64,000 nucleotides of DNA. Source: Terrabacter sp. Ter38 (lineage in GTDB: Bacteria; Actinomycetota; Actinomycetes; Actinomycetales; Dermatophilaceae). Position 1 is the first letter of the stretch. Each line of letters starts with the position of its first letter. The position numbers and the translations under genes were made by a program. The notes beneath the pieces were generated by a model that was not told the DNA's origin, did not search any database, and saw nothing but the letters and a program-made list of their open reading frames with translations. This document shows positions 53,979-58,309 of the stretch, in pieces. The stretch is taken from NCBI RefSeq assembly GCF_024519435.1, contig NZ_JALJRZ010000001.1, positions 434,001 to 498,000 on the forward strand, read 5' to 3'.

Positions 53979-54020
53979 GGCGAGGCACTACTCGCTCGGG
54001 GGTCCGAGTAGTGCCTCGCC
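53979..54020. terminator. 16-bp perfect hairpin between folA and dapA
   Basis: GGCGAGGCACTACTCG and CGAGTAGTGCCTCGCC pair fully around a 10-nt loop. It lies after folA and before dapA on the minus strand and probably ends the thyA-folA message. It has no T-run. The GAGGCACT core also occurs in the kdpE/ftsK intergenic repeat. Confidence 0.75.
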
Positions 54021-54096
54021 ACTCCTACATCGGCGGGTTCGCCCGGGTGTTACAGCCTGATCCGGGTTTTCTTTCCGAGAGATCGCGTATGCCGTG

Positions 54097-54576
54097 TCAG
54101 CCGCGCCGCTCGTAGGTGACCCAGGCGAAGCCCGGCCGCTCGTCGCGGGCGGTCTCGGTCCAGATGGCAGGGTCGATGGCCGGGAAGGTGACCGAGCCCT
54201 CCGGGGACTGGTCGACGTCAGTCACGAGGAGGCGGACGGCATACGGCATGGCCTGGCGGTAGATCTCTCCCCCGCCGACGACGAAGACCTGCTCGGCGTC
54301 GGCCACGAGCGCGAGCGCCTCGGTGAGGGAGTGCGCCACCTCGACGCCGGGAGCGCTCCAGTCGCGCTGTCGGGTGACGACGACGCTGCGCCGGCCGGGG
54401 AGCACACCCATCGAGTCGAAGGTGCGCCGACCCATGACCATCGGGTGGCCCATCGTCGTTCGCTTGAAGAACCTCAGGTCCTCGGACAGGTGCCACGGCA
54501 TCGTCAGCCCGTCGCCGATGACGCCGTTGCGTCCGACGGCGGCGATCATCGTCACGTTCGGCAGCGCGGTGGTCAT
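54097..54576 (-). CDS. folA: Dihydrofolate reductase
   Basis: The 159-residue enzyme shows MIAAVGRNGVIGDGLTMPWHLSEDLRFFK, VMGRRTFDSMG, GRRSVVVTR and FVVGGGEIYRQAM. It regenerates tetrahydrofolate after ThyA makes dihydrofolate. It follows thyA by 28 bp on the same strand and is closed by the hairpin at 53979-54020. Start ATG with no strong ribosome site. Confidence 0.96.
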   Translation of the reverse strand: MTTALPNVTMIAAVGRNGVIGDGLTMPWHLSEDLRFFKRTTMGHPMVMGRRTFDSMGVLPGRRSVVVTRQRDWSAPGVEVAHSLTEALALVADAEQVFVVGGGEIYRQAMPYAVRLLVTDVDQSPEGSVTFPAIDPAIWTETARDERPGFAWVTYERRG

Positions 54577-54604
54577 GGCGGCAAGGGTCCCAGACTCGGA
54601 CCGC

Positions 54605-55420
54605 TCAGACGGCGATGGGGGCCTTGATGCCCGGTTCGGCGACGTAGTCGACGAGCTCGAAGTCGTCGAGGTCGAAGTCGTCGATGTTCGTCTTGCCGGG
54701 CGTGATGCGCATCGTCGGGAGCGCATGCGGCGTGCGGGTCAGCTGCAGGCGGGCCTGGTCGAGGTGGTTGAGGTAGAGGTGGGCATCGCCGAGCGTGTGC
54801 ACGAACTCCCCCGGCTCGAGATCGGTCAGCTGGGCCACCATCTGCGTCAGCAGGGCGTAGCTCGCGATGTTGAACGGCACGCCGAGGAAGATGTCTGCGC
54901 TGCGCTGGTAGAGCTGGCACGAGAGGCGGCGGCCGCCGTCGGGTCCGGGCGGCGAGACGTAGAACTGGAACATCGTGTGGCACGGCGGCAGGGCCATGTC
55001 GTCGACGTCGGCGACGTTCCAGGCCGAGACGATGAGGCGGCGGCTGTCGGGGTTGGTGCGGATCTGCTCGATCACCTTGGCGATCTGGTCGACCCGGCGG
55101 CCGTCGGGCGTGGGCCACGAGCGCCACTGGTAGCCGTAGATCGGGCCGAGGTCACCCGTGTCGGGGTCGGCCCACTCGTCCCAGATCGAGATCCCCCGCT
55201 CCTGGAGCCAGCGCACGTTGGTGTCGCCCCGCAGGAACCACAGCAGCTCGCCGATGATCGAGCGCAGGTGCAGCTTCTTCGTCGTCATGGCCGGGAAGCC
55301 GTCGGCGAGGTCGAAGCGCATCTGGTGGCCGAACACGCTGAGCGTGCCCGTGCCCGTCCGGTCGGACTTCTCCTGACCGTGGGTCAGGACGTGGTCGAGG
55401 AGATCGAGGTACTGCCGCAC
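54605..55420 (-). CDS. thyA: Thymidylate synthase (ThyA type)
   Basis: The 271-residue protein is classical Thy[36 protein letters not shown], the active Cys147 in [39 protein letters not shown] and THALG-equivalent [12 protein letters not shown]. It methylates dUMP with methylene-THF. The GTG start makes [11 protein letters not shown] line up with E. coli ThyA and has TAGGCT 7 nt upstream. The AbiEi/DUF559 unit begins about 60 bp upstream. Confidence 0.97.
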
Positions 55421-55427
55421 GATCCGC

Positions 55428-55433
55428 AGCCTA
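55428..55433 (-). promoter_or_regulatory. thyA: -10 hexamer for a leaderless start (thyA)
   Basis: TAGGCT is followed by GCGGATC (7 nt) and the GTG start. It supports the choice of that start. Confidence 0.55.
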
Positions 55434-55482
55434 ACCCTGACCCCGACGCCCACCGCCGTAGGCCGCCGCCGACGCACCGTCA

Positions 55483-55524
55483 TGTGTGCACCGATGGGTG
55501 CCAGGCCCACGATCCGTGCACACA
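55483..55524. repeat. Left 42-bp inverted repeat of the AbiEi/DUF559 unit
   Basis: The segment begins TGTGTGCACCGATGGG and ends CCGTGCACACA, so it has its own dyad of TGTGTGCAC and GTGCACACA. Its reverse complement matches 56577-56618 at 35 of 42 positions. Confidence 0.85.
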
Positions 55525-55594
55525 CCGGAGCCTCGAGTGGACTGCCTGTGCACGGCGGAAGCGGCGCGGCGCGAGCGGTCGGCAGCATGGTCGC

Positions 55595-56569
55595 GTGCTC
55601 GCCGACCGTGTCATCGAGGAGTCGCCCCGGCTCCGGGCCCGGGTGTCCGGCCAGTCCGGGCTCATCAGCCGTGCTCAGGCCCTCGAGGCGGGGATCGGCG
55701 GCGAGGCCATCCGGTGGGCCGTCGCGTCCGGCCGTTGGACCACGTCGCACCCGGGTGTCTACCTCACCACCCCGGGCCGGGACGACTGGGAGGTCCGGGC
55801 CGTCGCCGCCCTGCTCTTCGTGGGGCGCCCAGCCGCCCTCGCCGGACCGAGTGCAGCACTGGCCTGGGGGCTGGAGCGGCGCGAACCGGAGTCGGTCCAC
55901 CTCGTCGTCCCGGCCGGCCGGCGGGCGAGCACCCGCGGCGGCATCGACGTCATGCGGTCGAGACGCTTCGACGAGCGCATCGACGACCGGGCGTGGCCGC
56001 ATCGGACCACGGTCGAGCACACGGTTCTCGACCTCGGCATGCGCTCACCCCTGGATCGGGTGCTGGCGCTCGCCGCTCGAGCGTGCCAGCAGCGCCTCAC
56101 CGACGAGGCTCGACTCGCGCAGGCGCTCGCAGGCCGCCCGGACCAGACGCACCGCGCCCTGCTCCGGGAGTGCCTCACCGACCTGGGCACCGGCGCCGAG
56201 AGCGCCGCCGAGGTGCGCTACATCCGCGACGTCGAGCGCGCGCACGGTCTGCCGACCGCACTGCGGCAAGAACACATCGGGTCCGGCCGTCGCTGCGACA
56301 ACCTCTACGACGCCGAGCAGGTCGTGCTCGAGGTGGACGGGAGGCTCGGGCACGAGGGGTGGGCCGCACGGGTCCGCGACGGCATCCGTGATCGCGGCTC
56401 GGCGCGGCTGGGACGGGTCACGGTGCGGGTCTTCTGGACCGACGTGGCCGTCACTCCCTGCGAGCTCGCGGCGGAGGTCGGCGACCTGCTGCGCGTCCGA
56501 GGGTGGCGAGGTTCGGTGCGGCCGTGCCGCAGACGCGGTTGCTCGTCGATCATGCGTACTGCGGCCTGA
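55595..56569 (+). CDS. AbiEi-like antitoxin domain fused to DUF559/Vsr-type endonuclease-like domain
   Basis: The ~324-residue protein has an N-terminal winged-helix AbiEi-type domain ([35 protein letters not shown]). A middle region ([23 protein letters not shown]) and the basic VIPA-like block follow. The C-terminus has [18 protein letters not shown] and RVFWTDV, resembling the DUF559/Vsr nuclease-like fold with an acidic E-x-D-G site. No AbiEii-type toxin lies next to it. GTG start with no ribosome site. The gene is enclosed by 42-bp inverted repeats and breaks the spacing between thyA and the paa operon, suggesting a small acquired unit. Function is unknown. Confidence 0.78.
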
Positions 56570-56576
56570 CTCCCGC

Positions 56577-56618
56577 TGTGTGCACGGACCGGCGTCCTGG
56601 CACCAATTGGTGCACACG
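56577..56618. repeat. Right 42-bp inverted repeat of the AbiEi/DUF559 unit
   Basis: It begins TGTGTGCACGGACCGG and ends TTGGTGCACACG, 7 bp after the AbiEi/DUF559 stop. It is the inverted, 83% identical partner of 55483-55524, and both carry the shared core CCTGGCACC in this orientation. Confidence 0.85.
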
Positions 56619-56638
56619 GCGGACGTGGCCCGGGCCGG

Positions 56639-57799
56639 TCAGGCGTCGTAGTCGAGGCTGACCTCGTCGGTGACCGGGTGGGACTGGCAGGCGAGCACGA
56701 TGCCGGCCGCCACCTCCTCCGGCTCGAGCGCGTAGTTGCGGTCCATCCGGACCTCGCCCGACACGAGCCTGGCCCGACAGGTGCCGCACACGCCACCCGT
56801 GCACGAGTAGGGCGCGTCGGGCCGGGCGCGCAGGGTCGCGTCGAGGATCGTCTCCTCGCGGCTCGGCATCGGGATGACGGTCGTGCGCCCGTCGAGGTTG
56901 ACCGTGACCATGGCCTCGGGAGGCGCGCCGGCGTCGACGACGACCTTGCGCTTCGGCTCGGTGCCGTCGTCGACGTGGAAGATCTCGTGGTGGATGTGCC
57001 GCGGGTCGACGCCCTGACCGGTGAGCAGGGCCTCCGCTCCGGTCACCATGCCGAACGGCCCGCAGAGGTACCACTCGTCGACGGAGCCGACCGGCAGCAG
57101 CGTGCCGAAGATCGCCTCGAGCCGCTCCGTGTCGAGCCGGCCGTGGAAGAGCTCGACGTCCTGGGCCTCACGGGACAGGACGTTGACGAGGTGGAAGCGC
57201 CCCGGGAAGCGGTTCTTGAGGTCCTCGAGCTCTTCGAGGAACATGATCGAGCTGGTGCGGCGGTTGCCGAAGAGCAGCGTCGCGCGCGACCCGGGCTCCT
57301 CCTCCAGCGCCGTCGTCAGCAGCGAGATGACGGGCGTGATGCCCGAGCCGGCCGCGATCGCGACGTGATGGCGTATGCCGTCCGGCCGGGTCGGGCACGT
57401 GAACGAGCCCGCTGGCGTCATGACCTCGACGACGACGCCGGCCGAGACGCCGTCGTTGAGCCAGTTCGACATGCGACCCTCGGGCACGCGCGCAGCCGCG
57501 ACCCGGAGGCTGCGTCCAGCAGGGTCGGCCCGGCGTGACTGGCAGATCGAGTAGGACTGGCGCACCTCCTCACCGCGGATCTCGGCGCGGAGCGTCAGGT
57601 GCTGGCCTGGCTCGAAGACGAACTCGTCGACGAGGTCCTCGGGCACGGCGAAGGTGACCGCGACGGCCTCGTCGGTGAGGCGCTCGACCGACGAGACAGC
57701 CAGCCGGTGGAAGCGCGCGCGGTGGCGGACGCTCGTGGCCTGGCCAGGGGCCGCGTCCGCGGCGGGACCGGTTGCGGTGGGGGTGGAGACGTCGGTCAT
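56639..57799 (-). CDS. paaE: Phenylacetyl-CoA epoxidase reductase subunit PaaE
   Basis: The 386-residue protein has a ferredoxin-reductase front (FHRLAVSSVERLTDEAVAVTF, FEPGQHLTLR, RQSYSICQS for FAD), an NADPH domain (IAAGSGITPVISLLTTAL, LLFGNRRTSSIMF, YLCGPFGM) and a plant-type 2Fe-2S domain (PYSCTGGVCGTCRARL and a last Cys in LACQSHP). It passes electrons to PaaA. It directly abuts the paaD stop. Residue Ile in PDGIRHH uses the rare ATA codon within an octamer. Confidence 0.96.
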   Translation of the reverse strand: MTDVSTPTATGPAADAAPGQATSVRHRARFHRLAVSSVERLTDEAVAVTFAVPEDLVDEFVFEPGQHLTLRAEIRGEEVRQSYSICQSRRADPAGRSLRVAAARVPEGRMSNWLNDGVSAGVVVEVMTPAGSFTCPTRPDGIRHHVAIAAGSGITPVISLLTTALEEEPGSRATLLFGNRRTSSIMFLEELEDLKNRFPGRFHLVNVLSREAQDVELFHGRLDTERLEAIFGTLLPVGSVDEWYLCGPFGMVTGAEALLTGQGVDPRHIHHEIFHVDDGTEPKRKVVVDAGAPPEAMVTVNLDGRTTVIPMPSREETILDATLRARPDAPYSCTGGVCGTCRARLVSGEVRMDRNYALEPEEVAAGIVLACQSHPVTDEVSLDYDA

Positions 57800-58309
57800 T
57801 CAGATGGCCTTGAACTCGTCGAAGGGCTCGAGACACGCGTTGCAGCGGCGCAGGGCCTTGCACGCGGTCGAGCCGAAGTGGGCGATCTCGGTCGTGTCGG
57901 CGGAGCCGCACCGCGGGCAGGCGACGACGTGGCGGCTCAGGGTGACGGCCACGGGACCGTGCGGCTCCCCCGCCGGCACAGCGCCCGGGGGCGCGATCCC
58001 GAAGCGCAGCAGTGCCGCTCGCCCTTCGTCGCTCATCCAGTCGGTCGTCCACGCCGGCGACAGCTGCGTGCGGACGTCGGCGGCATACCCCATGCGGTCG
58101 GCCTCGAAGACGATGCGCGAGGCGATCGCCTCCATGGCGGGGCACCCGCTGTAGGTCGGGGTGATCGTCACGGCGACGGTGTGCGCCTGCTCGTCGACCT
58201 CCACGGCTCGCAGGATGCCGAGGTCGGAGATGCTGATGACGGGCACCTCGGGGTCCGGGATTCGCGAGATCGTCTCCGCGACAGCGGACTCCACGGCCAC
58301 GGTGGTCAC
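57800..58309 (-). CDS. paaD: PaaD, phenylacetate 1,2-epoxidase assembly subunit
   Basis: The 169-residue protein has a MIP18/DUF59 domain (ISRIPDPEVPVISISDLGILRAV, PTYSGCPAMEAIASRI) and a C-terminal zinc ribbon (CPRCGSADTTEIAHFGSTACKALRRCNAC). PaaD is thought to help iron-sulphur or metal assembly of the epoxidase. GTG start overlapping the paaC stop (GTGA). Confidence 0.94.
   Translation of the reverse strand: MTTVAVESAVAETISRIPDPEVPVISISDLGILRAVEVDEQAHTVAVTITPTYSGCPAMEAIASRIVFEADRMGYAADVRTQLSPAWTTDWMSDEGRAALLRFGIAPPGAVPAGEPHGPVAVTLSRHVVACPRCGSADTTEIAHFGSTACKALRRCNACLEPFDEFKAI

Follow-up and report, generated by a model that had tools for sequence, protein, structure and literature searches.

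Among bacterial repeats, REP palindromes are common, and HUH (RAYT) enzymes have been linked to their spread. In the systems as these sources present them, a nuclease gene lies between inverted palindromes, cognate palindromes occupy intergenic positions, often near the 3' ends of genes, and enzyme and palindrome diverge together (PMC2817692, PMC3733652). RAYT and TIRYT units have both been described (PMC3733652), and TnpA-REP was reported to process its cognate REPs (PMC8266576). The same account mentions CGTC-tagged REPs of Caulobacter and others, reported there without a dedicated transposase, and one large REP superfamily without a known enzyme (PMC3733652). In a different context, the AbiEi antitoxin fold was reported to bind inverted repeats and to autoregulate through them (PMC7319586). 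A paper on palindromic repeats in Frankia was not relevant (PMC4447401).

The window analyzed here, a stretch of 64,000 nucleotides from Terrabacter sp. Ter38, carries a gene for an AbiEi-nuclease protein enclosed by two inverted palindromes (Table 1). We consider it probable that this gene, together with its two ends, serves as source for a family of REP-like palindromes, a REPtron-like arrangement in which the enzyme is unrelated and the palindromes would be copied through its activity. The first-pass annotation had described 42-bp inverted copies around the gene, each with an internal dyad, and a direct count agrees: the reverse-complemented left end is identical to the right end at 35/42 positions, and both ends are imperfect palindromes in themselves (GTGTGCAC ... 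GTGCACAC). The left-end palindrome lies 70 bp from the GTG start codon and the right-end palindrome 7 bp from the stop codon. An inverted-repeat search returned arms of 45 nt (55484-55528 and 56573-56617) that are 84% complementary; among the 14 inverted pairs of at least 30 nt lying no more than 3 kb apart in the window, this pair alone reaches 40 nt with more than 80% complementarity. The pattern GTGTGCA-N(20-32)-TGCACAC occurs at two places in the window, which are the two unit ends, and at none in 100 shuffles, and the end-pair score of the unit is 27.5 against a maximum of 16.0 among 144 sham intervals from related loci. A chance origin of the end pair was rejected on these three counts (shuffles, sham intervals and the survey of inverted pairs). 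The annotation was also correct in placing the unit between thyA and paaE without a transposase, as the AbiEi-nuclease gene is the single gene between the ends; a PaaD-like gene comes next after the PaaE-like gene. Rfam gave no match over positions 54000-58000. Comparison of three Terrabacter copies shows purifying selection on the gene (dN/dS 0.13-0.17), whose nearest homologue in the named genomes is that of Terrabacter sp. Root85, at 93% protein identity.

Table 1. Features of the AbiEi-nuclease unit in the window, and sites at which the same neighbors enclose a unit in opposite orientations in different species.
Feature	Position	Strand	Remarks
thyA (thymidylate synthase), neighbor outside the unit	54605..55432	-	Pfam E 6e-124
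Left-end palindrome	55483..55524	.	GTGTGCA-N26-TGCACAC at 55484-55523
AbiEi-nuclease gene (P0001)	55595..56569	+	324 aa
AbiEi antitoxin fold, residues 1-198	55595..56188	+	predicted, structure model
Vsr / I-Bth0305I / NGO0050-type nuclease domain, residues 202-304	56198..56506	+	predicted, structure model
Right-end palindrome, inverted copy of the left	56577..56618	.	35/42; arms at 56578-56617
PaaE-like FAD/NAD/2Fe-2S oxidoreductase gene, neighbor outside the unit	56639..57799	-	
Opposite-orientation site, thyA-paaE			Humibacillus (L028, L029) vs Terrabacter and Intrasporangium
Opposite-orientation site			L072 vs L064, L083, L084
Opposite-orientation site			L082 vs L090
Opposite-orientation site			L045 vs L038 and L142

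The nuclease domain is assigned from the structure model, which gives it the fold of the homing endonuclease I-Bth0305I. The annotation had read the protein as AbiEi joined to DUF559/Vsr; the AbiEi fold and a Vsr-type domain are both predicted by the model, but Pfam does not call DUF559 in the protein. Searched down to E 1, Pfam-A returned AbiEi families and no others (AbiEi_4 at residues 12-57, E 1e-7), and an NCBIfam search gave no match. Residues E206, D235 and E246 of the Vsr-like domain are kept in 62/62 alignment rows, and D248 and H253 in 61/62; these conserved residues are presumed to be catalytic. I-Bth0305I, Vsr and the DUF559-like NGO0050 belong to the Vsr-like (EDxHD) nucleases. 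Homologues of the unit protein are present in 147/186 genomes of one bacterial family (E 1e-15). Among the matches listed, 12 homologues are interrupted by an internal stop codon and others are in pieces. The gene is thus often broken, which would be expected of a dispensable element.

Flanked units recur at homologous loci. From 80 loci in named genomes, 78 were surveyed (L069 and L097 were left out because of short flanks), and an inverted pair upstream and downstream of the gene scored at least 15 in 47/78, compared with 1/144 sham intervals and 6/468 mismatched pairs, some of which may be near-identical loci; about five of the 47 are doubtful for their position, length or want of self-complementarity (L046, L066, L082, L034 and L052). 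The 31 loci without a pair by score include 8/9 of one Streptosporangiales/Trebonia clade, and diverged ends are still visible in some of the 31 (L025, L027, L028 and L030). With the five loci flagged by position or length set aside, 42 loci remain; in these the left end lies 25-113 bp upstream of the estimated start, and the right end has its beginning anywhere from 40 bp ahead of the end of the stop codon to 47 bp past it. Self-complementarity of at least 70% was found in 71/94 ends, against 1/94 shuffled ones. The first-pass annotation was right that the ends go with the gene.

Each unit, however, has ends of its own. The similarity of left and right end within one unit has a median of 28 in 41 units, a value inflated by their selection for a score of at least 16 (6 of the 47 loci were left out), whereas between units the median is 9, both at 60-80% protein identity (13 pairs) and at 50-60% (48 pairs); the two pairs with proteins more than 80% identical have their ends in common (median 39). 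Since similarity within units far exceeds that between them, our comparison shows that the ends turn over fast, and both together. The source genome (G000) itself holds several units with differing end types side by side: a paralogue (C50) 40% identical to the window protein has 43-bp inverted repeats of quite different sequence that are 95% complementary, and a second paralogue, 27% identical, is flanked by yet another repeat set. The flanks of this second paralogue (L011, in the region of G000:C11:621226) bear several CAGACAGCGGATCAGTCGGC-type repeats in both orientations (L011:972-1127 and 2229-2337), which form a cluster and not one pair. Palindromes of the C50, L012 and GGCATAC types were sought within the window, and none was present beyond chance. 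CCWGG-centred palindromes were considered as Vsr/Dcm sites and rejected, as they are found in some Dermatophilaceae types only and other types have other centres.

The palindromes also lie away from the units, each in the genome of its own unit. The left ends of 24 units were searched against 23 genomes (the genome of L062 was left out), with up to 18 candidates scored per genome; the best 150 rows, less 35 opposite-strand duplicates, gave 115 sites. There are thus at least 115 distinct palindrome sites, and among the matches listed 115/115 lie in the genome whose own unit bears that palindrome and none elsewhere. Of these, 38 are unit ends and at least 77 are dispersed, in at least 16/23 genomes; per genome, the matches listed include 0-16 dispersed copies, mostly single ones, and none in 7/23 genomes. 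Fifty non-unit regions of 1.6-4.8 kb each, covering 51 of the 77 copies, contain no unit-like protein, and tblastn over the regions covered gave no unit remnants at the dispersed palindromes. Where they align, these 51 copies match at 84-100%, and their flanks are unrelated; 38/51 are intergenic and 13/51 lie inside a gene called by a crude gene caller. Many dispersed copies are situated 3' of genes or between convergent genes. In the Kineosporiaceae MAG G207, 16 dispersed copies show 95-100% identity over 41-44 bp. An exact-arm search for the Knoellia type gave 13 sites in G192, of which two are unit ends and 11 dispersed, two sites in G210, a relative whose unit occupies the same site, and none in 16 other genomes; the backward control gave none in all 18 genomes. 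The anatomy of the unit, its specific ends and the dispersal within its own genome are well supported by these observations.

The window type was counted in nine Terrabacter genomes with the pattern GTGTGCA-N(22-30)-TGCACAC. The source genome has the two unit ends and three dispersed sites (C11:353838, C22:200928 and C53:117343), with no unit-like protein within about 1.5 kb of the latter; exact-arm counts are low for this type as well as for the Knoellia type. Extra sites are also present in G001, G005 and G008. In G006 (74% complete) the palindrome is confined to the two ends of the unit, with no dispersed copy, and G003, G004 and G007, in which no unit is seen at thyA, have no site. G002 has no unit at thyA yet has two sites, which counts against strict co-occurrence of unit and palindrome. 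The backward control found none in eight genomes and one in G007. Spacing is fixed in the types tested: the spacer is exactly 26 in 20/22 window-type sites, and all Knoellia-type matches are 52 bp long though 13 spacings were permitted. A palindrome GTGTGCA-N25-TGCACAC with a different interior occupies one orthologous site in two genomes (L256, G001:C5:140717; L261, G005:C15:32915), apparently just upstream of a gene start, and may be an operator of something else.

For the C50 type, dispersed sites A-D all carry the palindrome in the source genome. At site D it is present in 5/5 genomes with a C50 unit (broken in G008) and in 0/4 genomes without a C50-like match above about 1e-27 among the matches listed (G006 being incomplete), site C has it in two genomes and site E in one. 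This comparison covers one genus, in which unit and palindromes may simply have common ancestry. The 16-mer TCGTGGCGGTCCGTCG, which flanks the paralogue L012 (C33:537931), was seen by eye to recur at L152 (about 1890-1960, G000:C22), where it adjoins a C50-type palindrome and where the neighbor gene of G002 and G004 is missing.

Columns were analyzed in 20 window-type sites (the two N25 palindromes of G001:C5 and G005:C15 were excluded), with the arms fixed by the search. The arms are followed by five variable positions and then by an inner dyad, in which one G/C pair is invariant. The five positions pair at 0.35-0.55, compared with a shuffled mean of 0.28-0.39; for two of them the observed pairing was reached in 21-22 of 500 shuffles, so some pairing is kept there. 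The C50, L044 and L053 types follow a similar plan, in which a variable band lies between conserved outer arms and an inner part; in the G207, L040 and L065 types the palindrome is almost unbroken. Palindromes built of arms, variable band and inner part look more like the site of a multimeric protein than like a plain hairpin.

Such a site could be an operator. The unit could encode a self-regulated defence or regulatory protein, with the ends and the dispersed palindromes forming its regulon and the nuclease restrained or aimed at invading DNA. The modelled AbiEi fold, the match of PADLOC AbiEi models to the protein and the fixed spacing of the arms, suggestive of a multimer site, all fit this explanation, as does the autoregulation of AbiEi antitoxins through inverted repeats in the account cited above (PMC7319586), and the data are compatible with the self-regulated gene of the first-pass annotation, the product of which would bind both ends. 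However, neither immediate neighbor of the window unit is a toxin, many dispersed copies lie 3' of genes, and presence at given sites varies between species. Moreover, near-identical copies of 41-57 bp whose flanks are unrelated are more suggestive of copying than of selection at each site. We therefore regard a regulon as an unlikely explanation of the whole pattern.

The position of many copies 3' of genes or between convergent genes would instead suit ordinary hairpin terminators that are alike within a genome, with the gene merely lying between two of them. The other hairpins seen by eye at C50-type site C in relatives also suggest that terminator function may contribute. The left end, however, is upstream of the gene, and the 16 dispersed copies in G207 are 95-100% identical. 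One continuous RNA hairpin was rejected for the window type, given the weak pairing inside the outer arms and the lack of G-U bias in the stem mismatches (GT 56, AC 53), and in several types the variable band separates conserved outer arms from the inner dyad at fixed spacing. The palindromes are also specific to their units, and a single genome may have several types next to several units. The first-pass annotation had itself named, as an opposing view, repeats lying around unrelated genes as terminators; the palindromes do occur beside unrelated genes, but those listed are all in the genome of their own unit, so they are not generic terminators. Taken as the full explanation, terminators seem to us quite improbable.

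The history of the sites bears on mobility. G000, G005 and G001 have the unit at thyA-paaE, and in G008 it is, by eye, degraded there; in G006 it adjoins what by eye is the apparent start of thyA, and paaE follows 1.2 kb further on (L027). By eye, G003 has a solo palindrome-like relict beside paaE and lacks the gene, and G002 and G004 have other sequence with an apparent short ORF; G007 is rearranged. The annotation had proposed looking in related genomes for empty thyA-paaE sites; no clean empty site is present among the Terrabacter genomes compared. It had also proposed aligning copies to find borders and target duplications, and neither a duplication nor a clean junction is evident in the flanks of the dispersed copies. 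On a protein tree built by a quick method, site and orientation labels are strongly clustered, with 10 changes for 11 groups against a shuffled mean of 20.4; thyA-site rows do not form one clade (the forks are open), and the inverted L072 groups with L084, which has the other orientation. Units largely follow host groups and sites. We show four sites at which the orientation of the unit between the same neighbors is reversed from one species to another (Table 1), and the unit can accordingly flip or re-enter; the end pair is not convincingly detected in L029 and L082. L039/L041 was rejected as a case of a moved unit, as the flanks are common to both.

Searches of mobile elements gave no match in 72,556 plasmid records and, with one peptide pattern only, six stretches in viral contigs, none of them a relative. 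A phage collection gave one match (L142, MT835975.1), a 'Bacteriophage sp.' from human feces on an unannotated 14-kb scaffold; its unit has end repeats and the same neighbors as a Phycicoccus locus, so the scaffold is probably bacterial and mislabelled as phage. The unit protein of L079, in a Verrucomicrobiia MAG, is 99% identical to that of L076 (Micropruina glycogenica) and the downstream neighbor 100% identical; its presence in a MAG named as another phylum is probably a binning error. A homing-like or transposon-like mobile gene, with the ends as terminal inverted repeats and solo palindromes as empty or vacated sites, has in its favor the modelled homing endonuclease fold, the two orientations at one site, the relict in G003 and the internal stops, but it is very unlikely given units that follow host groups and sites, their absence from plasmids and from the viral contigs as searched, and dispersed palindromes with neither unit remnants nor visible target duplications. 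The mobile unit of the first-pass annotation is not supported in the form proposed: we found no recent movement, the unit sits at one site in several Terrabacter species, and plasmid records gave no match; the flanked unit that it observed is confirmed and its interpretation partly supported. The palindrome, rather than the gene, seems to be what gets copied.

All of this leads us back to a probable source locus from which a private palindrome would be spread. In such a system the AbiEi half would recognize the palindrome, probably via its outer arms, and the Vsr-like nuclease half would probably nick or cut at or near the inner dyad. Cutting followed by host repair could then place copies of the palindrome between genes, often on their 3' side, could keep both ends and the dispersed copies alike, and could occasionally flip the whole unit. 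We infer the binding from what is reported of AbiEi proteins (PMC7319586), the cleavage from the predicted fold and conserved residues, and the role of the protein in dispersal from the genome-by-genome specificity of the palindromes.

The likeness to REP-RAYT systems (REPtrons and TIRtrons) lies in a gene set between two inverted palindromes, at the window and by score at most of the homologous loci surveyed, in cognate palindromes dispersed at low copy number in their own genome, and in co-divergence, with ends mostly common to close proteins only and both ends changing together. The enzyme differs, being AbiEi plus a predicted Vsr-like nuclease and not a Y1/HUH transposase of the IS200/IS605 group. 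Classical REPs exceed 100 copies per genome and are paired as BIMEs/REPINs, whereas the palindromes here, of about 40-57 bp and in several types with outer arms and inner dyad, number 0-16 among the matches listed and, in the copies examined, hardly ever occur as tight pairs; no GTAG or CGTC tag is evident in the consensus stretch of the palindromes. With layout, dispersal and co-divergence as in a REPtron, but no HUH enzyme and few copies, the system is REPtron-like and not a member. It resembles AbiE type IV toxin-antitoxin systems in its modelled AbiEi fold, but the window unit has no adjacent AbiEii nucleotidyltransferase toxin, both neighbors are on the other strand, the AbiEi part is fused to a nuclease, and palindromes lie on both sides and dispersed. 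It shares a predicted homing-endonuclease-type catalytic domain with homing endonucleases, but differs from Vsr, I-Bth0305I and NGO0050 in its AbiEi half and cognate palindromes, and from insertion sequences in having no transposase. The CGTC-tagged REPs are similar as dispersed palindromes without an HUH partner, in other organisms and with other sequences. DUF559 model matches were observed in a Caulobacter control genome, a genus with CGTC REPs.

Among the titles listed from searches of open-access full texts, we found none linking an AbiEi/DUF559-nuclease to flanking or dispersed palindromes, and to our knowledge no earlier REP-like system is run by anything other than an HUH transposase. 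An unrelated nuclease here shows the same genomic signature as REP-RAYT, and we lean towards the view that AbiEi-Vsr/I-Bth0305I-like fusions are a second, independently evolved class of repeat-spreading enzyme, which would recognize, cut and disperse, in the chromosomes of actinobacteria, private palindromes that change along with it. If true, this would be the first REP-like system without an HUH transposase, and it may give a lead to the enzyme still missing from other 'orphan' palindrome families. Natural enzyme-substrate pairs are on offer in many genomes, which makes recognition, cleavage, copying and the co-evolution of protein and site directly testable. By homology alone, AbiEi-nuclease proteins would be classed as antitoxins or abortive-infection proteins; the finding gives them a function to test.
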